Part shown: piece after piece, positions 48,592-60,041 of the stretch | How positions within the stretch are numbered: the first letter of the stretch is position 1 | How the letters are laid out: the number at the start of each line of letters is the position of its first letter | Assembly: GCF_000607165.1 (NCBI RefSeq) | Contig: NZ_JFZG01000024.1 | Span: forward strand, 1-64,000 | Reading direction: 5' to 3' | Origin: Ralstonia pickettii | GTDB taxonomy: Bacteria; Pseudomonadota; Gammaproteobacteria; Burkholderiales; Burkholderiaceae | DNA: 64,000 nucleotides | Translations under genes and position numbers: made by a program | Notes under the pieces: model-generated | Told to the model about the DNA's origin: nothing | Seen by the model: only the letters and a program-made list of their open reading frames with translations | The model's database searches: none

Positions 48592-48939
48592 ATGAACCAC
48601 ACCGACCCATCCTCCACGCCAGCAGTGCCCGACACCCACGGCCAGCAGCACAGCATCAGCGTCTACCTGAAAATCTGGGGCCTGCTGTTCGTGCTCAGCA
48701 CGCTGTCGTACCTGGTCGATTACTTTCGCGTGGAAGGCCTCACACGCTGGGTGCTGATCGTCGTTCTGATGATCGCCAAGGCGGGGCTGATCGTCTCTGT
48801 GTTCATGCACATGATGTGGGAGCGGCTGGCACTGGTGTACGCCATTCTCATGCCGCCGCTCGCGTTGCTGGTGCTGATGGTTCTGATGGCGGCGGAGGCG
48901 CATCACACGTTCGGGATGCGCATGTTGTTCTTCCACTGA
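48592..48939 (+). CDS. coxD: Cytochrome c oxidase subunit IV
   Basis: A 115-residue small subunit with three transmembrane helices (about 28-43, 54-73 and 82-101) and a His-containing N-terminus, fitting the prokaryotic COX4/CyoD family. Typical is the segment MIAKAGLIVSVFMHMMWE. It begins 7 bases after coxC. Last gene of the oxidase operon; it assists CuB assembly or stability in related enzymes. Confidence 0.88.
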   Translation: MNHTDPSSTPAVPDTHGQQHSISVYLKIWGLLFVLSTLSYLVDYFRVEGLTRWVLIVVLMIAKAGLIVSVFMHMMWERLALVYAILMPPLALLVLMVLMAAEAHHTFGMRMLFFH

Positions 48940-49102: not shown

Positions 49103-50458
49103 ATGCTGCCCCACCCTACAACCATCGACGTGCGAGCGTGGCTCGACGGCCAACGCTTTTCCGCGTTCCAATGGCGCGTCGTTGCGCTGTGCTTCTTCAT
49201 CGTCGCCATTGACGGCTTCGACACCGCCTGCGTCGGCTTCATCGCGCCGGCGCTCGTGCAGGACTGGCACGTCACCCCCGGCGTGTTGGGCACCGTGTTC
49301 AGTGCCGGCCTGGCGGGGCTGATGGTTGGGGCGCTTGCCTTTGGCCCACTGGCCGACCGCATCGGGCGCAAACGCACGCTGCTGCTCACGGTGGCGGCGT
49401 TTGGCGTTGCCACCGTGGCATCGGCGTTTGCGCCGAACGTCAGCGCGCTGATCGCGTTGCGGTTCCTGACGGGCCTTGGCCTGGGCGGCGCCATGCCCAA
49501 CGCCATCGCCCTCACGTCCGAATACTGCCCGGAGCGCCGACGGTCCTTCCTCACCACGGTCATGTTCTGCGGCTTTACATTGGGCTCGGGCTTTGGCGGC
49601 ATCGTCGCGGCGCAACTGGTGCCCGATTTCGGCTGGCGCAGCGTGCTGCTGTTTGGCGGCGTCGTGCCACTGGTGCTGGTGCCATTGATGGCCTTTGCGC
49701 TGCCGGAATCGGTGCGCTACTTGGTGTCCAGTGGTGCAGACAACACCACGGTCGGCAAGCTGCTCAACCGCATTGCGCCATTGGCCGTCACGCCCGACAC
49801 GCGCTTCGCGCTGCATGAAGCCAAGGCGCCGGGGTCGCCGGTGCGGCAGCTCTTCCTGCCGGCTTTCCGCACGGGCACGCTGCTGCTGTGGACGGTGTTC
49901 TTTATGAGCCTGCTGATCGTCTATCTGCTGACGAACTGGCTGCCGACGCTCGTTCACGCGGGTGGCGTGTCGCTCGCGCTGGCGTCGCGCATTGCGGTGA
50001 TGTACCAGGTGGGCGGCACCATTGGCGCGCTCATCATCGGACGGTTGATGGATCGGTACCCCGCGACGATCGTGCTGTGCGGCACCTACGGCCTGGGTGC
50101 CATATTCCTCGCCCTGACAGGCGTGACGCAAGGCACGATGCTCGCCTTTGCCGTCACGGGTGTGGGCTTCTGCATCAGCGGCTCGCAAATCGGCGCGAAC
50201 GCATTCGCGGCCCAGTTCTACCCCACCGCCAACCGTGTGACAGGGATCAGTTGGGCACTGGGCGTAGGCCGTCTCGGTTCGGTGTGCGGTGCACTGGTGG
50301 GCGGCGTATTGCTGACGGCAAACATCGGGTTCCAGCTGCTGTTCCTGATCGTGGCGGTGCCGGCAGCAATTGCGGCGGTGGCCATCTTCCTATGCGGCAG
50401 CCAGGCAAAACGTACCGGCGCCGGGCAGGCATTGCCCATTGCCCCGGAAGGCACGTAA
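49103..50458 (+). CDS. Aromatic acid:H+ symporter of the MFS (AAHS family)
   Basis: A 451-residue, 12-helix transporter. Helix 1 has IVAIDGFDTACVGFIAPAL, the DGFD-type motif of the AAHS family (PcaK, BenK, GenK), and the helix 2-3 loop carries GPLADRIGRKRTLL. AAHS proteins import benzoate, hydroxybenzoates, gentisate or salicylate with protons. Its position next to the salicylate/gentisate operon makes salicylate or gentisate the likely substrate. It is convergent with nagR and separated from it by the 21-bp repeat array. Confidence 0.88.
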   Translation: MLPHPTTIDVRAWLDGQRFSAFQWRVVALCFFIVAIDGFDTACVGFIAPALVQDWHVTPGVLGTVFSAGLAGLMVGALAFGPLADRIGRKRTLLLTVAAFGVATVASAFAPNVSALIALRFLTGLGLGGAMPNAIALTSEYCPERRRSFLTTVMFCGFTLGSGFGGIVAAQLVPDFGWRSVLLFGGVVPLVLVPLMAFALPESVRYLVSSGADNTTVGKLLNRIAPLAVTPDTRFALHEAKAPGSPVRQLFLPAFRTGTLLLWTVFFMSLLIVYLLTNWLPTLVHAGGVSLALASRIAVMYQVGGTIGALIIGRLMDRYPATIVLCGTYGLGAIFLALTGVTQGTMLAFAVTGVGFCISGSQIGANAFAAQFYPTANRVTGISWALGVGRLGSVCGALVGGVLLTANIGFQLLFLIVAVPAAIAAVAIFLCGSQAKRTGAGQALPIAPEGT

Positions 50459-50468
50459 GCATTCGGCC

Positions 50469-50911
50469 TGTTGCGGGCGGATTACGGACCTCAAACAGTG
50501 GAGTGTCACTGTTTGAGGTCGAAAATTTCGACCTCAGAGCGCGGCGTTCGACAGTCCGAGAGCCGAACGCCAGCCCCAACCCGCCGAGCGCGACGGTCCG
50601 AGGGCGGATTGCGAGCCTCGGATCACGGAAGGGTCGAATGTTTCAGGGCGGAGCACGAGCCTCCAACAGTCGCGTTCGAGCCTTCGAGGCTGAAACGTCA
50701 GCCTCCGAACGCGGCAGCCGAGTGTTCGAGAGTGAGACACGCCACCCAGACGGTGGAGCTTGTCCATCAGAGCGCCATCGTCGAGCGATCGAGCCTGACG
50801 CTCGACCCTCGGAAGTTGGAGCATCAGTGTTCGAGCCTCAGTCCTGACGATCCCCAGTTGGAATTCGAATGTTCGACGGTGGAGCGATGCTCCAGAACTC
50901 GCAGGCAACGA
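50469..50911. repeat. Array of about 21 degenerate 21-bp tandem repeats
   Basis: Between the symporter and nagR, the sequence falls into contiguous 21-base units. From 50532 the units start at 50532, 50553, 50574, 50595 and 50616, then (after a 2-base insertion) every 21 bases from 50639 to 50891. Two further units, less regular, precede them, and perhaps one more begins at 50469. Units vary but share the form YSTYCRARNGYGGANNNTCGAG; two good examples are TGTTCGACGGTGGAGCGATG and CCTCCGAACGCGGCAGCCGA. Because 21 is a multiple of 3, several frames stay open with a seven-residue period. Confidence 0.85.
50487..50535 (+). other. Two overlapping hairpins at the start of the repeat array
   Basis: Hairpin A has perfect 14-bp arms, GACCTCAAACAGTG (50487-50500) and CACTGTTTGAGGTC (50507-50520), with a 6-nt loop. 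Hairpin B has perfect 10-bp arms, GAGGTCGAAA (50515-50524) and TTTCGACCTC (50526-50535), around one base. They share 50515-50520, so only one can form fully at a time. A lies 29 bases beyond the symporter stop and probably serves as its terminator; there is no clear U-tract. Confidence 0.75.
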
Positions 50912-50934
50912 GGCGGCACACCCTTGTGTCCTGC

Positions 50935-51837
50935 CTAGATAGCAAACATCTCGAACAGCAACTGCCGCAGCCATTGGTTGGCCGGCTCGCGGTGATTGCG
51001 CCCATGCCACAGCACATTGATGGTGATATCCGGAATCTTGGCCGGGCAAGGCGCCGTGGCAAGGTCAAACGGTTTGAGCGTGCGCGTGGCATAGGCCTCA
51101 GGCACCACCGCAATCATGTCTGTCGACTGCAGGATGTGCCCCAGCGCCACGAAGTGCGGCACACGCAGGCTCACCCGCCGCGACATCCCTGCCCGCAGGA
51201 TGGTTGAATCCACCATGCCGTGGCCCGTTCCCTCGGCCACGATCGACACGTGCTCGGCTTCCAGGAAGCTCTTCATCGTCATGCCGTTCTTGGCGAGCGG
51301 ATGGCCCTTTCTGAAGAGGCACACATAGCGCTGCTTGAACAGCCTGCGCTGGAAGAACCCCGCCTTCAGGTCCGGCAGAAAACCAATGGCGAGATCCACA
51401 CGGCCGGCCTCCATCTCATCGCGCAGCGTGTCGGCATGGTTGCGCACCGTGCTGATGGTGACCCCGGGTGCGTCCTTCTCCAGGCGGCGCATCAGACTAG
51501 GCAGGAAGTAGATCTCGCCGATGTCCGTCATCGCAATGGTGAAGGCGCGTGTGCTCGTCTTGGGGTCGAACTTGGTCGTGGCATTGAGCGAGTTGTAGAT
51601 CGCCCCGAGCGCGTAGGCGATGGGCTCCGCAAGTGTCTCGGCAAAGGGCGTCGGCACCATACCTTTGGATGTGCGGATGAACAGCTCATCTCCAAACAAC
51701 TTGCGCATGCGGTTCAGCGCATTGCTGATGGCGGGTTGCGAGATGCCCAGTGTTTCCGCCACGGCCGAGACACGACGCTGCCGAAGCAACTCATTGAAGA
51801 CGACCAACAGGTTGAGGTCGATGTCCTGCAGTTCCAC
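50935..51837 (-). CDS. nagR: NagR, LysR-type salicylate-responsive activator
   Basis: A 300-residue LysR protein closely resembling NahR/NagR/DntR: it starts MELQDIDLNLLVVFNELL, has SQPAISNALNRMRKLF, IRTSKGMVPTPFAE, AMTDIGEIYFLP and GFFQRRLFKQRYVCLFRKGHP. These regulators activate aromatic degradation genes when bound to salicylate. It is divergent from nagAaGHAbIKL with a palindromic operator in the 130-bp gap, so it almost certainly controls that operon. Its 3' end abuts the 21-bp repeat array. Confidence 0.92.
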   Translation of the reverse strand: MELQDIDLNLLVVFNELLRQRRVSAVAETLGISQPAISNALNRMRKLFGDELFIRTSKGMVPTPFAETLAEPIAYALGAIYNSLNATTKFDPKTSTRAFTIAMTDIGEIYFLPSLMRRLEKDAPGVTISTVRNHADTLRDEMEAGRVDLAIGFLPDLKAGFFQRRLFKQRYVCLFRKGHPLAKNGMTMKSFLEAEHVSIVAEGTGHGMVDSTILRAGMSRRVSLRVPHFVALGHILQSTDMIAVVPEAYATRTLKPFDLATAPCPAKIPDITINVLWHGRNHREPANQWLRQLLFEMFAI

Positions 51838-51862
51838 CGCGTGTCTCCTCGTGTTCTCGCAT

Positions 51863-51879
51863 TATCACTGCGAGTGATA
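51863..51879. promoter_or_regulatory. NagR operator in the nagR/nagAa divergent promoter
   Basis: A perfect inverted repeat TATCACT-GCG-AGTGATA, 26 bases upstream of the nagR ATG and 88 bases upstream of the nagAa ATG. Location and dyad symmetry fit a LysR recognition site serving both autoregulation and activation of the nag operon. Confidence 0.65.
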
Positions 51880-51967
51880 TGAGACATCAGGTTGCTTCTA
51901 TTTATGTATGTCGTCAAGCGGGCCATGATGCTTCCACACAGAAAAACGACTAGCCCGGAGACACGGC

Positions 51968-52954
51968 ATGGACGTCACCGTCACCCCACTGCAGCGCATC
52001 GTCAGCGCGCGCTCGGGCGATAACCTGCTCGAAGTCCTTCGCACCAACGAAGTCCCTATCTCGTATAGCTGCATGGCGGGCCGCTGCGGCACGTGCCGCT
52101 GCCGGGTCGTATCCGGCAATGTGGCCGTCACGGGTGGTGCCGACATGAACAGCCCCTCGGCCTCGGGCCAGATCGTGCTGGCCTGCCAGACCACGCTGGT
52201 AGAAGACTGCGCAATCGAACTGCCGGAAGTGGACGAAGTGGTCGTGCACGCCGCCCGGATCGTCAAGTCGAAGGTCGCGTCCATCGAGAATATGACCCAC
52301 GACATCAAGCGCATCCGGCTGGATCTCGCCAAGCCGCTCGATTACTCGCCCGGCCAGTACGCCACGCTGCAGTTCACGCCCAAGCATGTGCGGCCGTACT
52401 CGATGGCCGTGGCCAACGAAGGGAGCACGCTTGAGTTCCATGTGCGTGTGGTGCCGGATGGCCGTGTCACTTCGTACATTGCCAGCGAACTCAAGGTGGG
52501 CGATGACGTGCGCGTGAGTGGCCCGCTGGGCACGGCGTATCTGCGCCGCCGGAATGCAGACCCGATCCTTTGCGTTGCGGGCGGCACCGGCCTCGCGCCC
52601 ATTCTCTCCATCCTGCGCGGCATGGCCGATGCGCGCATGACCAACCCGGTACACGTGTACTTCGGCGTGCGCTCACCCATCGACGTGTACGGCACCCATT
52701 GGCTGGATGCGCTGCGCGAGCGCCTGCCGAACCTGCACACGCACGTCGTCATCACGACATCCAACACAGACCACCGCTACCGCTCGGGCGTCGTGACCGA
52801 CGCAGTGGCGAGCGACTGGCAGAGCCTCACGGGCTGGCGCGCCTACCTGGCCGGCGCGCCCGTCATGGTGGACGCCGCGAGCCTGCTGTTGCGCCAGCGC
52901 GGCGTGCTGCCCGAACACATCTACGCGGATGCCTTCTACGCCGTTGGCGTCTGA
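51968..52954 (+). CDS. nagAa: Salicylate 5-hydroxylase ferredoxin reductase
   Basis: A 328-residue reductase with an N-terminal plant-type [2Fe-2S] domain (CMAGRCGTCRC at about 36-46 and the fourth Cys in LACQTTL near 78), an FAD-binding domain (RPYSMAVAN near 145) and an NAD-binding domain (CVAGGTGLAPILSILRGM near 205). It passes electrons from NADH to the NagAb ferredoxin. First gene of the operon, 130 bp from nagR. In Ralstonia sp. U2 the same reductase also serves naphthalene dioxygenase, but no such oxygenase is present here. Confidence 0.93.
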   Translation: MDVTVTPLQRIVSARSGDNLLEVLRTNEVPISYSCMAGRCGTCRCRVVSGNVAVTGGADMNSPSASGQIVLACQTTLVEDCAIELPEVDEVVVHAARIVKSKVASIENMTHDIKRIRLDLAKPLDYSPGQYATLQFTPKHVRPYSMAVANEGSTLEFHVRVVPDGRVTSYIASELKVGDDVRVSGPLGTAYLRRRNADPILCVAGGTGLAPILSILRGMADARMTNPVHVYFGVRSPIDVYGTHWLDALRERLPNLHTHVVITTSNTDHRYRSGVVTDAVASDWQSLTGWRAYLAGAPVMVDAASLLLRQRGVLPEHIYADAFYAVGV

Positions 52955-52988
52955 AGCCGCACGCCCATTACAAGCCTCGGAGACACCC

Positions 52989-54245
52989 ATGAAAGAGTCG
53001 ACCCTCACGTTTTCCAGACCCGCCTGGAAAGACGATGGCTCCAGCCGGATTCCATTCCGCGCCTACACCGACGACGAGATCCACCAGCGCGAGCTGGAAC
53101 GCCTGTTCTACAACGGGCACTGGTGCTACGTCGGCCTGGAAGCGGAGATACCCAACGCGGGCGATTTCAAGCGCACGGTGGTGGGCGAACGTTCGGTGAT
53201 CGTCACACGCACGCAGGACAGCTCGATTGCCGTGGTGGAGAACGTCTGCGCGCACCGCGGCGTGCGCTTCTGCCGCGAGAGATCCGGCAACCGCAAAGAC
53301 TTCACCTGCCCCTACCACCAGTGGAACTACGACCTGAAAGGCAACCTGATCGGCGTGCCCTTTCGGCGGGGCGTGAAGTCCGAAGGCAAGGTGCAGGGCG
53401 GCATGCCTGCCGATTTCGATCCGAAGGAACACGGCCTCACGCAACTCAACGTGGCCGTGCGCAACGGGGTCATCTTTGCCTCGTTCGACCACGACCTGCC
53501 GTCTTTGGAAGACTTTCTCGGGCCGACCATCCTTGGCTATTTCGACCGCGTGTTCGACGGTCGCAAGCTGAAGATCCTTGGCTACAACAAGCAGCGCATT
53601 CCGGGCAACTGGAAGCTGATGCAGGAGAACATCAAAGACCCGTATCACCCGGGGCTTCTGCACACGTGGTTCGTCACGTTCGGGCTCTGGCGGGCGGACA
53701 ACAAATCCGAGCTGAAGATGGATGCGCTGCATCGCCACGCCGCGATGATTTCCACGCGCGGCACCGGCGGGAAAGGCGCCGTCACCAGCGGCGTCACCAG
53801 CTTCAAAGAGAAGATGACGCTGCACGACGACCGCTTTCTCGATGTTGCGCAGGAACCCTGGTGGGGCGGCCCGACGGCCGTGATGATGACCGTCTTCCCG
53901 AGCGTGATCATCCAGCAGCAGGTCAATTCCGTGTCGACACGACACATCCAGCCCAACGGCCACGGCTCATTCGATTTCGTCTGGACCCACTTCGGCTTTG
54001 AAGACGACACCGAAGAGATGACGCAGCGCCGCCTGCGCCAGGCCAACCTGTTCGGGCCCGCCGGCTTTGTCTCGGCAGATGACGGCGAGGTCATCGAGTT
54101 CTCGCAGGAAGGCTTTGAGCAGAAGCCGGGCCACCGCACCGTGGCCGAACTCGGCGGCCGCGAAGTGGGCGACACCGACCACATGGTCACGGAAACGCTT
54201 ATCCGCGGCATGTACGAATACTGGCGCAAGGTGATGGAGATCTGA
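52989..54245 (+). CDS. nagG: Salicylate 5-hydroxylase, oxygenase large subunit
   Basis: A 418-residue Rieske oxygenase alpha subunit. The Rieske cluster ligands are in CAHRGVRFC and CPYHQWNY (about residues 88-113), and the mononuclear iron site includes [13 protein letters not shown] near 215. With NagH it hydroxylates salicylate at C5 to give gentisate. The ATG at 52989 follows GGAG by 7 bases; an upstream in-frame ATG would overlap the end of nagAa. Confidence 0.94.
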
Positions 54246-54246
54246 C

Positions 54247-54738
54247 ATGGCTGACGTGACTGACACGCTCGATTTCTCGACCTACCAGCAACTGCTGGCC
54301 CTCTATACCCGTTACGCCGCCGCCGTGGACAACGCGGCGTGGGATCAATGGACCGACCTCTTCGTCGACGACTGCACTTACAAGGTCCAGCCGCGCGAAA
54401 ACTACGAACGCGGCTTTCCGCTCGCCACGCTGTCGTTCGAAAGCAAGGGCATGTTGAAGGACCGCATCTACGGCATCACAGAGACGATCTTCCACGACCC
54501 GTACTACCAGCGCCATGTGGTTGGCCTGCCCGAGGTCACGCATGTGGAAGGCGACCGCATTGAAGCGCAGGCCAACTACGCCGTGTTCCGCACCAAGCCC
54601 GATGCGTTGTCGACGGTGTTCAACGTCGGCCGCTACATCGACATCATCGTCCGCACCGAAGCGGGATTGAAGCTGAAGTCGCGCACCTGCGTGTTCGACA
54701 GCGAAATGATCCCGAACTCGATCATCTATCCGATCTGA
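54247..54738 (+). CDS. nagH: Salicylate 5-hydroxylase, oxygenase small subunit
   Basis: A 163-residue Rieske dioxygenase beta subunit (NTF2-like fold), with [37 protein letters not shown] at the N-terminus, typical of the family. It starts two bases after the nagG stop codon. It has no cofactor and shapes the hexameric oxygenase. Confidence 0.93.
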
Positions 54739-54747
54739 GGTCTGCCC

Positions 54748-55071
54748 ATGAGCAATACATCAACCACCACCTGGCTCAAGCTCATCAGCGTTGACGACCT
54801 GCCGGACGACGACGTGATTGCCGTCAGTGCCGGCGACGCGGAGATCGCGGTGTACCGCGTTGCCGGTGAAGTCTTCGCCACCGACAACGTCTGCACGCAC
54901 GGCCACGCGCGCCTGTGCGACGGTTTTCTCGACGGCTACGAGATCGAATGCCCGCTGCACCAGGGCAAGTTCGACGTGCGCTCGGGCAAGGCGATGTGCG
55001 AACCGCTCACGACCGACGTGCGCACGTTCCCGATCAAGATCGAAGACGGCCACGTCTTTGTCGAGCTGTAA
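54748..55071 (+). CDS. nagAb: Rieske-type ferredoxin of salicylate 5-hydroxylase
   Basis: A 107-residue Rieske ferredoxin with the two ligand pairs [11 protein letters not shown] near residue 49 and CPLHQGKFD near 69. It carries single electrons from NagAa to NagG. Same operon, 9 bases after nagH. Confidence 0.95.
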
Positions 55072-55081
55072 GGGGATGGCC

Positions 55082-56128
55082 ATGACATCAACCACGCTGC
55101 AGACCGAGCGCGGCGCGTACTACGCGCAACTCGATGGCAAGCAACTGGCGCCGCTGTGGGAATCGCTGCATTCGCTGGTGCCGCGCGAGCCCAAGCCGCG
55201 CATCGTGCCCGCCATCTGGAAGTACAACGAGGTGCGCCCGCTGGTCATGCAGGCCGGCGCCGTCATCAGCGCCGAAGAGGCCGTGCGCCGCGTTCTGATC
55301 CTGGAGAACCCGGGGCTGCCGGGCAAGGCCAGCGTGACGTCCACGCTGTACGCGGGGCTGCAATTGATCCTGCCGGGTGAGATCGCGCCGAGCCACCGGC
55401 ATACGCAATCGGCGCTGCGCTTCATTGTCGAAGGCCGTGGCGCGTGGACGGCCGTCAACGGCGAACGCACCACGATGCACCCCGGCGATTTCATCATCAC
55501 GCCTTCGTGGACGTGGCACGACCACGGCTGCCCGACGCTTGAGGATGGTGGCGAACCCGTCGTCTGGCTGGACGGCCTCGACATTCCACTGGTGCAGCAG
55601 TTCGACTGCGGCTTTGCCGAGAACTACCCCGAAGCCCAGCAACCCGTGATGCGCCCGGAAGGTGACAGCTACGCGCGCTTCGGCCACAACATGGTGCCGG
55701 TGCGCCATCGCGTGACCGACCCCACGTCGCCGATCTTCAGCTACCCGTATGCGCGCTCGCTCGAAGCGCTCGACACGCTCTACCGCCACGGCGAACTGGA
55801 CCCCTGGGACGGCGTGAAGCTGCGCTACGTGAATCCCACCACCGGCGGCTGGCCGATGCCGACCATCGCCACCTTCATGCAGTTCCTGCCCAAGGGCTTT
55901 GCGGGCAAGACCTACCGCAGCACCGACGCCACCGTCTACAGCGTGGTGGAAGGCCGCGGCACGGCACGCATTGGCGACGAGCAATTCGAGTTCGAGCCGC
56001 GCGACGTGTTTGTCGCGCCGTCGTGGGCGCCGGTGCAGCTCAACGCATCGGAGGACGCGGTGCTGTTCAGCTATTCCGACCGGCCCGTGCTGTCTGCACT
56101 GAATCTGCTGCGCGAAGCGCGTACCTGA
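55082..56128 (+). CDS. nagI: Gentisate 1,2-dioxygenase
   Basis: A 348-residue bicupin enzyme that opens the gentisate ring to maleylpyruvate using Fe(II) and O2. The first cupin has the iron-binding [15 protein letters not shown] (about residue 105) and WTWHDHG; the second cupin begins near 270 ([17 protein letters not shown]). Of two close ATGs, 55082 is chosen since AAGGGG lies 6 bases upstream. It follows nagAb after 10 bases. Confidence 0.95.
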
Positions 56129-56229
56129 CAAGAACCCACTCCATTGCTCTTGCGGCGTGCCAGACGGCACCGCCGCCGGGCCGATTCACGCCTGACCCCT
56201 GCGCTTTGACCGACCACACTGAGCCCACC

Positions 56230-56928
56230 ATGACCTACGTCTTCACGCCCCCTGCCCTCACCGCCGCGCCCGTTGCAGGCAGCCGCGACCAATTTGCCGT
56301 CCGCCGCGTCTATTGCGTCGGCCGCAACTACGCCGCCCACGCCCGCGAGATGGGCTACGACCCTGACCGCGAACCGCCGTTCTTCTTCTGCAAGCCCACC
56401 GACGCCATCGTGCCGGTGGCGGATGGTCAAACGCTTGAACTGCCGTATCCCTCGCAAACGCAGAACTACCACTATGAAGCCGAGCTGGTGGCCGTGATCG
56501 GCAAACCCGGCGCCGACATCTCCGTGGACACCGCGCTCGACCATGTGTGGGGCTACGCCGTCGGGCTCGACATGACCCGCCGCGACCTGCAGATGAAGAT
56601 GCGTGAGATGGGCCGCCCGTGGGAAATCGGCAAGGCATTCGATGTGTCCGCACCGATGGGCCCCATCCATCCGGTCAGCAAGATCGGCCACCCGCAGCAA
56701 GCCGGCATCTGGCTGACCGTCAATGGCGAGACCAAACAGCGCAGCGATGTATCGCACCTGATCTGGTCTGTGGCGGAAACGGTGGCGTACCTGTCGCAGT
56801 TCTTCCGCCTGGAGCCGGGTGACGTGATCTTTACCGGCACGCCGGAAGGTGTCGGGGCCGTGAAGCCCGGCGACCGCATCGTCATGGGCGTGGATGGCCT
56901 GGGCGAGCTGAAAGCCTGCATCGTCTGA
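56230..56928 (+). CDS. nagK: Fumarylpyruvate hydrolase
   Basis: A 232-residue fumarylacetoacetase-family hydrolase: VYCVGRNYAAHAREMG near residue 27, FFFCKPTDAIVP near 51, the metal-binding NYHYEAELVAVIG near 78 and the late GDVIFTGTPEGVGAVKPGD. It splits fumarylpyruvate to fumarate and pyruvate, the final step of the pathway. The 101-base gap after nagI is the largest within the operon; the ATG at 56230 begins the conserved MTYVF start. Confidence 0.94.
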   Translation: MTYVFTPPALTAAPVAGSRDQFAVRRVYCVGRNYAAHAREMGYDPDREPPFFFCKPTDAIVPVADGQTLELPYPSQTQNYHYEAELVAVIGKPGADISVDTALDHVWGYAVGLDMTRRDLQMKMREMGRPWEIGKAFDVSAPMGPIHPVSKIGHPQQAGIWLTVNGETKQRSDVSHLIWSVAETVAYLSQFFRLEPGDVIFTGTPEGVGAVKPGDRIVMGVDGLGELKACIV

Positions 56929-56939
56929 GCAGGCGCGCC

Positions 56940-57581
56940 ATGCAGCTCTACAGCTTCTTCAATAGCTCGACGTCGTATCGGGTGCGCATTGCGCTGGCGC
57001 TCAAAGGGCTGCCTTACGAGACGCTGCCGGTGAACATCCGCACCGGCGAGCATCGCGCGGCAGGCTATGTGGAGCACATCAACCCGTCGGCGGGCGTACC
57101 GGCGCTCATCGACGGCGAGATGCAATTGAGCCAGTCGCTCGCGATCATCGATTACCTCGATGCGCGCCACCCCGAGCCACGGCTCATTCCGCTCGAACCG
57201 TTGCAGCGGGCGCGCGTGCTGGAACTGGCCAACGCCATCGCTTGCGACATCCACCCGATCAACAACCTGCGCGTGCTGCGCTATCTGCAAGACGTGCTGA
57301 AGGTCACGCCCGAGCAGAAAGACGCGTGGTATCGCCACTGGATCGACGAAGGCATGGCGACCGTCGAGCGCCTGCTCGCGCGGTACGGCACCGGCCCATG
57401 GTGCTTTGGCGATGCGCCGACGCTGGCCGACGTGGCGCTGGTGCCGCAGGTTGCCAACGCGCTGCGCATGGGGTGTTCGCTGGAGCGGTACGAGCACGCG
57501 ATGACGATCTACCAACACGCCAGTGCGCATCCGGCCTTCAAGGCTGCCGCGCCGGCACAACAACCAGATTTCGCCGCCTGA
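56940..57581 (+). CDS. nagL: Maleylpyruvate isomerase (glutathione-dependent, zeta-class GST)
   Basis: A 213-residue zeta-class glutathione transferase: FNSSTSYRVRIALALKGL at the N-terminus with the catalytic Ser-Ser-x-Ser-type loop, NPSAGVPALIDGE near 48, LSQSLAIIDYLD near 63 and the helical C-domain with CDIHPINNLRVL. It isomerises maleylpyruvate to fumarylpyruvate. Eleven bases after nagK. Confidence 0.94.
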   Translation: MQLYSFFNSSTSYRVRIALALKGLPYETLPVNIRTGEHRAAGYVEHINPSAGVPALIDGEMQLSQSLAIIDYLDARHPEPRLIPLEPLQRARVLELANAIACDIHPINNLRVLRYLQDVLKVTPEQKDAWYRHWIDEGMATVERLLARYGTGPWCFGDAPTLADVALVPQVANALRMGCSLERYEHAMTIYQHASAHPAFKAAAPAQQPDFAA

Positions 57582-57627
57582 TGCACGTCACGCATCGCTG
57601 AAAAACAATCACAACGGAGGAGACCTC

Positions 57628-58731
57628 ATGAACCTGCGCCACCTGGCGTTTCCCTTGCTGCTGGCAGCGCCCGCGCTTGCCGCCGCACAATCAGCAGCCC
57701 AGTCCGTGACGCTGTACGGCGTCATCGATACGGGCGTCGAATACGTCAACCGCATCGGCTCGGCCGGCAATAGCGTCGTGCGCATGCCCAACCTGAGCGG
57801 CACCGTACCCTCGCGCTGGGGCCTGCGCGGCACCGAAGACCTGGGCGGCGGCGCCAAGGCGCTGTTCACCTTGGAATCGGGCTTCGCGCCCGACAGCGGC
57901 ACGAGCAACCAGGGCGGCCGCCTGTTCGGTCGGCAGGCGTGGGTGGGCCTGTCCAACAACTGGGGGCAGATCAGCCTCGGCCGTCAGTACACGATGCTGT
58001 TCTGGGCCACGCTCGATACCGACCTGCTCGGCCCCAACGCGTACGGTTCCAGCTCGCTCGACACCTACCTGCCCAACGCCCGCGCCGACAACGCCATTGC
58101 CTACAAGGGCAAGTTCGGCGGGCTCACGGTCGGTGCGACCTACAGCTTTGGCCGCGATGCCGTCAACGCCGGGCCCAGCCCGTCCGGCACCAACTGCGCA
58201 GGCGAAAACCCTGCCGACACGCGAGCCTGTCACGAGTGGTCTGCGCTGCTGATGTACGAGACCGGCAAGTGGGGCGTTTCCGCCGCGTACGATTCCCAGC
58301 GCGGCGGGCCCGGCGCGTTTGCCGGGTTGACGTCAAGCTCACTCAAGGATGAGCGCATGGCGTTGGGCGGCTATGCGCTGTTCGACCGCGCGAAGATCGG
58401 CCTGGGCTGGATCGGCCGCCGCAATGGCGCATCGGCCACGCCGCGCAGCGACCTCTTCTATGCGGGCGCCGCGTACGACCTGACACCGGCACTCACGCTC
58501 ACGGGCGAGGTCTTCCACCTGCGGTTCCACAACAGCGCCAACAAGGCATGGCTGGGGGCGGTGCGCGCCAGCTACGCGTTCAGCAAGCGCTCGTCGGTGT
58601 ATGCCACGGTCGGCTATATCGACAACCGCGGCAGCCTGGCGCTGTCTGTAGACAGTGCCGCCACGGGCGCCGCACCCGCCGCCGGCGGAAACCAGCTCGG
58701 CACGATGGTCGGCATCCGGCACGTGTTCTGA
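57628..58731 (+). CDS. Outer-membrane porin, Burkholderia type
   Basis: A 367-residue general porin. A signal peptide (about 1-21, ending LAAAQ) is followed by SVTLYGVIDTGVEYVNR, the standard first strand, then SRWGLRGTEDLGGGAKALFTLESGF, and it ends LGTMVGIRHVF with the C-terminal Phe needed for barrel assembly. GGAGGAG precedes the ATG. It lies 46 bases after nagL in the same direction and is followed by a strong terminator, so it is probably the last gene of the nag operon and admits aromatic acids. Confidence 0.93.
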   Translation: MNLRHLAFPLLLAAPALAAAQSAAQSVTLYGVIDTGVEYVNRIGSAGNSVVRMPNLSGTVPSRWGLRGTEDLGGGAKALFTLESGFAPDSGTSNQGGRLFGRQAWVGLSNNWGQISLGRQYTMLFWATLDTDLLGPNAYGSSSLDTYLPNARADNAIAYKGKFGGLTVGATYSFGRDAVNAGPSPSGTNCAGENPADTRACHEWSALLMYETGKWGVSAAYDSQRGGPGAFAGLTSSSLKDERMALGGYALFDRAKIGLGWIGRRNGASATPRSDLFYAGAAYDLTPALTLTGEVFHLRFHNSANKAWLGAVRASYAFSKRSSVYATVGYIDNRGSLALSVDSAATGAAPAAGGNQLGTMVGIRHVF

Positions 58732-58805: not shown

Positions 58806-60041
58806 TCAGCCGACGGCCGTAGCATCCAGCGCCTGCGTGAAATCCGCCAACAGATCGGCCTCATCTTCAATGCCGACCGACACGCGGACCAGCGAATCGG
58901 CAATGCCCATGGATGCGCGGCGCTCCGCGCCCATTTCCCAGTAGATGGTCGGCGCGACCGGAATCACCAGCGTGCGTGTGTCGCCCAGGTGCGTGGCGCG
59001 CACGGCGTAGCGCAGGTGGTCGAGCATGTCGACGTAGTCTGCGCCGTCCACCAGTTCGAAGCTCAGCAGGCCGCCGTAGTGGCGGAACAGCTCGGTGGCG
59101 CGTGCGTGTTCGGGGTGTTCCGGCAGGCCGGGGTAGTACACGCGTGCCACCTTCGGGTGCGCGGCCAGCGTGCGGGCCAGCGCCAGGGCGTTGCTGCAGG
59201 TGCGGTCAATGCGCAGCGCCATTGTTTCGGCCCCCACGGCAATGCGGTGCGCGGCATCGGCAATCAACGTCGCGCCCTGGTCACGCAGGCCCTTCTTGCG
59301 AATCTGCTGGATGCCCTGCATTTCCGGCTTGGCCTTGCGGTACGCCGGGTAGATGTTCGGATACGCCGTCCAGTCGAACAGGCCGGTATCGACCACCGCA
59401 CCGCCCAGCGCGTTGCCGTGCCCGCCGATGTACTTGGACAGCGAATGCACCACCAGGCTCGCCTGCGCGTCGCGCGCGCGGAACAGCCACGGCGAGGTCA
59501 TCGTGCCGTCGACCACGTAGATCAGGCCGCGTGCCTTGCACACGTCGCCAATGCCCTTCAGATCCGCCACCTGGGTGCGCGGGTTGGCAATGGTTTCCAC
59601 GAAGACGAGGCGCGTATTCGGCTGCACAGCGTCGGCCACGGCCTGGGCAGACGTGGCATCGACGAACGTCACCTCCACGCCCAGGTTGCGCAGCGTCTCG
59701 AACACGCTGTTGGTGTTGCCGAACAGGAAGGCGCTGGAGACCACGTGGTCGCCCGCGCGCAGCATGGTCGAAAACACCGCCATGATGGCCGCCATGCCGG
59801 TGGCAAAGCACGCAGTGGCCACGCCGGCTTCCATCATCGTGATCTTGGCTTCCAGTGCGGCGGTGGTCGGGTTGCCCTGGCGCGCGTAGGTGTAGCCGGG
59901 CTTGCCCTGGAACACGTCGATCAGCTCGCGTGTATCGGCATAGCCGTACGTGGTTGACGTGTGCAGGGGCTTGTGGACGGCGTAGTGCTCGACGCCGGCT
60001 TCACGGTCGGCGTGCAGGAGGGCGGTGGTCAGTCCGGTCAT
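58806..60041 (-). CDS. Cys/Met metabolism PLP-dependent enzyme (cystathionine gamma-synthase family)
   Basis: A 411-residue enzyme of the MetB/MetZ/MetY family. Family markers are YTYARQGNPTTAALE near residue 51, ATGMAAIMAVFSTMLRAGDHVV near 75, and the PLP-lysine segment HSLSKYIGGHGNALGG near 200. Members join acylated homoserine with cysteine or sulphide; the sequence alone does not tell which. The ATG at 60041 begins the conserved MTGLTTALLHADREAG-type start. It is read alone, leftward, with a terminator at its end. Confidence 0.87.
   Translation of the reverse strand: MTGLTTALLHADREAGVEHYAVHKPLHTSTTYGYADTRELIDVFQGKPGYTYARQGNPTTAALEAKITMMEAGVATACFATGMAAIMAVFSTMLRAGDHVVSSAFLFGNTNSVFETLRNLGVEVTFVDATSAQAVADAVQPNTRLVFVETIANPRTQVADLKGIGDVCKARGLIYVVDGTMTSPWLFRARDAQASLVVHSLSKYIGGHGNALGGAVVDTGLFDWTAYPNIYPAYRKAKPEMQGIQQIRKKGLRDQGATLIADAAHRIAVGAETMALRIDRTCSNALALARTLAAHPKVARVYYPGLPEHPEHARATELFRHYGGLLSFELVDGADYVDMLDHLRYAVRATHLGDTRTLVIPVAPTIYWEMGAERRASMGIADSLVRVSVGIEDEADLLADFTQALDATAVG

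Follow-up and report, generated by a model that had tools for sequence, protein, structure and literature searches.

A heptamer-based repeat array of Ralstonia pickettii belongs to a dispersed family and may be a platform for a cooperatively binding protein

A stretch of 64,000 nucleotides of Ralstonia pickettii (contig NZ_JFZG01000024.1; referred to as the window) carries between two convergent genes a periodic array, which is one copy of a repeat family dispersed in Ralstonia and some of its relatives. The basic unit of the array is a heptamer and not a unit of 21 bases, three heptamers making up 21 bp or two helical turns, and the purine/pyrimidine (R/Y) rhythm of this heptamer is the one feature common to all arrays tested. 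Our tentative reading, to which we give somewhat less than an even chance, is that the array is a double-stranded DNA platform, often at gene ends, for a cooperatively binding protein. Searches of the open-access literature on Ralstonia repeats returned no earlier description of the family. The array, its parts and its neighbors in the window are as follows.

50459..50886, strand-symmetric: heptamer-based array of about 20 half-units of 21 bp, or about 10 units of 42 bp.
50487..50520: inverted repeat of two perfect 14-bp arms around a 6-base loop, spanning two adjacent half-units; read from the sequence and recovered in the + strand centroid fold.
50515..50535: palindromic core GAGGTCGAAAATTTCGACCTC, AT-centered and carrying a phase insertion of 2 bases; exact match, with 0 expected in 100 shuffles, to a core pattern GAGGTCGAAAATTTCGACCTC that was written from the window copy and related copies.
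49103..50458, + strand: aromatic acid/H+ symport type MFS transporter (Pfam MFS_1), whose stop codon abuts the array; below the cut-offs of the NCBIfam TIGR00895 and PcaK models.
50935..51837, - strand: convergent LysR-type regulator (Pfam HTH_1, LysR_substrate), called nagR in the first-pass annotation, a name that is putative.
48625..48939, + strand: cytochrome oxidase subunit IV gene (Pfam COX4_pro), a homologue of which directly adjoins the array in five relatives.
58806..60041, - strand: cystathionine gamma-synthase family gene (NCBIfam NF004609), the orthologue of which is the other direct neighbor of the array in five relatives; displaced from the array by catabolic genes in the window.

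The strongest signal in the window array was R/Y power at a period of 7 bp (26.9; 24-27 across runs), which did not exceed 6.6 in windows starting outside 50000-51000. A cyclic 21-state profile, trained on arrays that included the window array itself, scored 215 over 50459-50886 and 24 over the runner-up stretch of the window. Identity at a lag of 21 bases was 0.373 as compared with 0.261 in 300 dinucleotide shuffles (z 5.3), and at a lag of 42 bases it was 0.409 (z 7.3, same shuffles). Since other 440-base stretches of the window reach up to 0.38 at lag 21, this value alone is not distinctive, and the case is decided by lag 42, the profile score and R/Y power at period 7. The first-pass annotation had described a degenerate 21-bp tandem array between convergent genes and had stated that the lack of an autocorrelation peak at 21 bases would refute it. 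The periodic array is borne out by its profile score and lag 42, but its basic period is shorter than 21 bases, and the autocorrelation peak, while above shuffles, does not single out the region. Of this array Tandem Repeats Finder picked up no more than 28 bases, with a period of 14. Nor do the units fill the whole gap, as had been stated; the array ends at approximately 50886, followed by 48 array-free bp and then the stop codon of the regulator (50935). The alignment path of a 42-state model placed 2-base insertions near 50616-50638, where one had been noted previously, and at the AT-rich core at approximately 50524, and indicated the absence of one 21-base half-unit near 50757-50777.

With respect to repeat architecture, same-phase identity across 41 arrays was 0.54 at distances of two, four and six half-units versus 0.45-0.46 at one, three and five, a difference which shrinks beyond six half-units. 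As even distances exceed odd ones, the full repeat is 42 bp in length, and it is composed of two 21-mers which are roughly reverse complements of each other. When models of different length were scored on 37 arrays, 42 states gave 9529, 63 states 9114 and 21 states 8367. Fourier analysis of 29 arrays gave a higher mean power for purine/pyrimidine at 7.05 bp (29.1) than for G+C at 10.55 bp (7.6), and in the window array alone the latter was only the third peak (4.5). Fitting seven states returned a near-palindromic heptamer of approximately CTYSRAG, with the R/Y rhythm YYYRRRN. Period-7 R/Y power was 15.9-57.0 in 15 arrays, 13.9-57.0 in a partly overlapping set of 22 arrays, and 12.2-62.5 in 11 arrays from 13 further loci, two of these 11 being the same array and two of the 13 loci lacking an array; it was at most 9.4 in 1910 non-array windows taken from the loci analyzed. 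On this common rhythm different loci have amplified different higher-order units of 21 or 42 bp (L278, L285, L326 and L270).

A search of relatives with a model of the repeat, proposed in the first-pass annotation, produced matches in all 16 genomes of the genus at E 0.001 when an 84-column sequence-only model was used. Matches to the window array itself by blastn were found in 11/16 of these genomes, and the core pattern with up to 2 mismatches in 12/16. The genomes with the fewest model matches (G004 and G009-G012) each still hold a profile-scored array. Within the R. pickettii genome itself the model identified 13 places at E 0.01, of which 11, the window array included, were confirmed as arrays by the profile; the remaining two (C9:72536 and C3:240455) were weak, fell below a profile score of 40 and were left out of the count. 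In a family-wide sample 22/249 genomes had model matches, 16 in the genus and 6 among the 233 outside it. All six non-genus genomes (G028, G048, G064, G228, G105 and G054), which represent four further genera, contained profile-scored arrays, so that the earlier suggestion of a family peculiar to the genus holds as to the family but not as to the genus limit. For G054 and G105 the places found by blastn were array-free and the arrays lay at the places matched by the model (L294, score 58, and L293, score 119, respectively). An order-wide sample yielded a match in only 1/399 genomes, namely that of R. pickettii itself; the large samples were searched with stricter filters, through which weak matches are lost. 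The core palindrome was also located at 104 loci in public genomes, and profile arrays were present at seven of these, all from Ralstonia or Burkholderiaceae bacterium 26. The other 97 loci, many of them from gut bacteria, have the palindrome without an array, and many of these are presumably terminator hairpins. A phage or plasmid element was considered and rejected: the window array was unmatched among 50,697 phage records, and the array with its flanks was unmatched among 72,556 plasmid records.

To describe genomic placement, genes flanking the arrays were called with a home-made and crude gene finder. Arrays lay between convergent genes at 26 of 57 loci, between codirectional genes at 28 and between divergent genes at 3, after two loci with one uncalled flank had been left out, and background adjacent gene pairs (n=269) were convergent in 50 cases, codirectional in 176 and divergent in 43. 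These locus counts are redundant and include orthologues, the 59 loci falling into 24 clusters, one of which was joined by sequence shared next to C4 RNA copies rather than by proven orthology. Several arrays abut stop codons. Among the neighbors of the arrays of the R. pickettii genome are hybrid histidine kinase, MFS, TetR, phospholipase C, urease and Clp-type genes, with no function apparent that is common to them. At one locus (L278, 3667-4018) an array with an R/Y power of 57 lies between genes for an ANTAR response regulator and an NMT1-like transporter component, a position in which one might look for an antiterminator leader. At another (L273, 3100-3830 and 3823-4277) a short simple repeat and then an array follow ureC, and the frame downstream of the array is one which we take to be ureE-like; this locus also shares other repeat-like sequence with the Clp-gene locus L272.

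The same locus was then compared between strains, as had also been proposed. In five relatives (G003, G005, G006, G014 and G015) an orthologous array occupies a gap of 391-517 bp between the COX IV and cystathionine gamma-synthase family genes, while in four others (G002, G007, G008 and G009) the same two facing stop codons are 18-21 bp apart and the array is absent. In G004 and G010-G013 the cystathionine gamma-synthase family gene has other neighbors. In G000 and G001 a transporter is found on one side of the array and a regulator with gentisate-type catabolic genes on the other. In the window both of the old array neighbors stand further out, and there too a stop codon adjoins the array. 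Genes for the transporter, regulator, a dioxygenase and gentisate 1,2-dioxygenase are located on both sides of the array within 49103-58731, and this catabolic island seems to have assembled around it. The lengths of the junction gap differ by approximate multiples of 21. Large gains and losses of units have occurred mostly in 21-bp steps: of 42 indels of at least 14 bases, counted pairwise and hence not independent, 40 deviated by no more than 2 bases from a multiple of 21, as did 12/14 distinct combinations of locus and length. Shorter indels were observed too, 36 of 1-3 bases and 12 of 4-8 bases.

Substitutions were examined in 11 pairs of orthologous arrays (612 substitutions in 3861 sites), using profiles built from other loci and phases assigned with the common model. 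Newly introduced bases had a mean log-odds of -0.05 against the profile versus -1.18 expected from matched trinucleotide context (z 16.4). The array had been suggested to be decaying; because its substitutions follow the repeat profile, it is not simply so. The substitutions also keep the R/Y class. In Y and R columns transitions accounted for 106/127 changes as compared with 918/2146 at four-fold sites of nearby genes (P 8e-20), and in the heptamer core phases transversions were halved (45/1141 vs 237/2853, P 5e-7) with no reduction in transitions. The R/Y heptamer rhythm seems to be kept by selection, although conversion between copies could also carry in allowed bases. Orthologous arrays were 0.72-1.0 alike and arrays of different loci 0.57-0.74 (mean 0.655 over 36 pairs, one of which, the window array and L181, is actually orthologous). 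Relative to four-fold sites most pairs of set2 and of the cytochrome oxidase junction were better kept and those of set5 worse.

On the favored reading, contiguous near-palindromic heptamers of approximately CTYSRAG, three to each 21 bp and arranged as two roughly inverted 21-mers per 42-bp repeat, would be occupied cooperatively by a dimeric DNA-binding protein, with one dimer per successive heptamer. A long nucleoprotein tract would thus form at a gene end, where it would probably separate neighboring and often convergent transcription units or supercoiling domains, an insulating or topological role. A protein-binding array was among the suggestions of the first-pass annotation, and it is retained here as the best reading, with the binding itself something that we infer. 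In its favor we count the R/Y power, the substitution bias, the indels at multiples of 21, the 10.55-bp G+C periodicity and the convergent excess, with the caveat that 21-base indel steps are what any exchange between similar units yields. Several results count against it. In S columns C-to-G changes (32/60 vs 876/2146 at four-fold sites) were not clearly higher (P 0.06). Column information was correlated with substitution rate (Spearman -0.35, P 0.025), but rotated controls gave -0.41 and +0.50. Overall the arrays diverge at close to the four-fold rate (0.89 for the window array and 0.89 for L173), and slightly more than half of the loci lie outside convergent gaps. In addition, 11/44 strands fold better than column-simulated arrays (z < -2), a result not expected if the arrays acted purely as DNA. 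No binding protein came to light.

A broader form of this proposal, which we regard as possible but doubtful, is a chromosomal heptad code: some 25-85 R/Y-patterned palindromic heptamers at gene ends would be read by a dedicated cooperative protein to form insulating or nucleoid-organizing filaments in Ralstonia and some other Burkholderiaceae, the sequence drifting while the R/Y rhythm and the two-turn phase stay. If this were true, the family would be kept by selection on purine/pyrimidine class and not on sequence, an unusual recognition code, and would have been missed by an ordinary tandem-repeat finder, different loci being approximately 65% alike. It would also point to a new nucleoid or insulator protein in Ralstonia and its relatives, and R/Y power at 7 bp would provide a simple spectral test for such elements elsewhere.

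The alternative with most to be said for it, though we consider it rather unlikely, is a bidirectional 3' end acting at the RNA level, in which both transcripts enter the array and fold into many interchangeable hairpins, where they stop or resist decay; palindromic heptamers would allow any unit to pair with any other. In the window gap the fold z is -5.4 for one strand and -4.3 for the other, and over 22 arrays the mean z against dinucleotide shuffles was -3.9 and -3.6. The 11 strands which fold better than column-simulated arrays (from L174, L177, L179, L181, L184, L187, L190 and L200) are in keeping with this, as are the absence of a T-tailed intrinsic terminator in 50300-51100, the preference for convergent gaps and for positions abutting stop codons, and the keeping of transitions with avoidance of transversions, which also fits G-U pairing. 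However, 7/44 strands have z > -1.5 against shuffles, including both strands of L270 and L274, and the R/Y rhythm is kept there. Against column-simulated arrays the medians were -0.5 and -0.9 and the mean z -0.4 and -0.1, and 4/44 strands fold much worse (z > +2, up to 8.5). Dyad complementarity was barely above column expectation (0.53 vs 0.51 at 4-20 bases, z 3.6), and the position of slightly more than half of the loci outside convergent gaps weighs on an RNA-level end as well. There may be an extra folding constraint on some arrays and not on others. Specific RNA hairpins were rejected, as little local covariation was observed beyond the columns, with RNA structure as such staying a rival. 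No Rfam structured RNA scored above its gathering threshold in the window, two matches over the array being far below it. The array of L272 (3877-4267) has a strong GC skew (0.54), and its minus strand hardly folds although the heptamer rhythm is strong.

We think it improbable that the array is a DNA-topology site of the BIME-2 kind, where phased G+C would let DNA gyrase wrap and cut and so relieve positive supercoils between convergent genes. The published gyrase motif of E. coli has flanks in which G+C varies with a period of 10.75 bp, and gyrase cuts are enriched at BIME-2 elements (PMC6379681); the 10.55-bp G+C peak and the convergent bias of the arrays would suit such a site, but R/Y at 7 bp dominates (29.1 vs 7.6), with the G+C peak ranking only third in the window array (4.5). 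Equally improbable to us is a selfish or neutral satellite, a heptamer/42-mer repeat which spread by unequal exchange, was tolerated between stop codons and had its consensus kept by conversion. This would account for divergence close to that of four-fold sites, for different 21- and 42-bp units having been amplified at individual loci and for presence and absence at one junction. Conversion does not dominate between loci, given that orthologous arrays resemble each other more closely than those from different loci do, and the conservation of R/Y class also speaks against a satellite. The decaying coding minisatellite encoding a heptad peptide, put forward in the first-pass annotation, is scarcely credible. 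It had drawn on 21 bp being seven codons and on open frames; one frame is open across the 428 bases of the array, and one across its close relative L173, but the orthologues L184 and L200 have none. At least one stop-free frame occurs in 39/57 arrays, that of the window included, which is expected because the unit itself holds few stops, and 18/57 have no open frame. The basic period is 7, substitution rates by phase modulo 3 were nearly equal (0.147, 0.184 and 0.145), and 2-base insertions lie within the array.

Copies of C4 antisense RNA (RF01695) are present 101-255 bp beside six arrays, reading away from the array behind a common TATAAT-type sequence, and at L271 a copy is 1.2 kb from the array. 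The copies are located as follows.

L269: 4289-4378.
L188: 4124-4215.
L177: 3287-3376.
L178: 3244-3333.
L187: 3526-3616 and 3107-3195.
L192: 4173-4262 and 4441-4529.
L271: 2561-2649.

In all, 7 of 13 array loci searched, which were partly chosen for C4, contained copies. There are 12 C4 matches in the R. pickettii genome, where 3/11 arrays lie within 1.3 kb of one, and 2-20 in each of the 16 genus genomes. None was found in the window or in 6/13 of the searched loci, so the element does not always include C4. A short ORF of 57 residues, unmatched in Pfam, recurs after C4 copies at the following positions.

L269: 4423-4791.
L177: 2874-3242.
L188: 4117-4626.
L187: 2692-3060.

Among known systems BIME/REP elements come closest to the array in location and omega/parS heptads in design, but it lacks at least one of the defining features examined for each. 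BIME/REP are dispersed extragenic palindromic units which alternate in orientation, are clustered and often lie 3' of genes or between convergent genes (PMC3733652). The present arrays are likewise extragenic and favor convergent gaps (26/57, with 3/57 divergent). In contrast, REP are palindromes of 20-40 bp with a GTAG or CGTC foot (feet as defined in PMC3733652), whereas the 42-state profile has no such fixed foot and the arrays are a contiguous heptamer rhythm rather than separate REP units; the main text of that paper makes no mention of Ralstonia, Burkholderia or Cupriavidus. A divergent RAYT-like gene with a weak Y1_Tnp match is present in 16/16 genus genomes (e.g., L321, 2527-3252), scoring below the NCBIfam cut-off in the R. 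pickettii genome, and a second, strong one is found in G002. REP with RAYT was rejected as an identity for the family, no array above a score of 22 being detected in 6-kb stretches around the RAYT-like gene in the 3/16 genomes examined. The units are contiguous and periodic with no unique spacers, which confirms the earlier view that this is not a CRISPR.

The parS site of plasmid pSM19035, to which the RHH protein omega binds, consists of 7-bp repeats that are contiguous and vary in orientation (PMC9499535). Contiguous 7-bp units are thus common to both systems, but that site has 7-10 non-palindromic WATCACW copies at promoters (PMC9499535) and the window array about 60 varied near-palindromic heptamers of approximately CTYSRAG. 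No partition (parA/RHH parB) family was identified among the 20 nearest proteins of the ten other arrays in the R. pickettii genome, 7/20 being without a Pfam match. The STRR heptanucleotide repeats of cyanobacteria are 7-base tandem units between genes, in which one fixed heptamer is repeated. The TAACTGA repeats of Beggiatoaceae are likewise reported to be 7-base tandem units between genes (PMC4679880). Both differ from the present family in that a single fixed heptamer recurs, whereas here only the R/Y pattern does so, together with a higher order of 21 and 42 bp.
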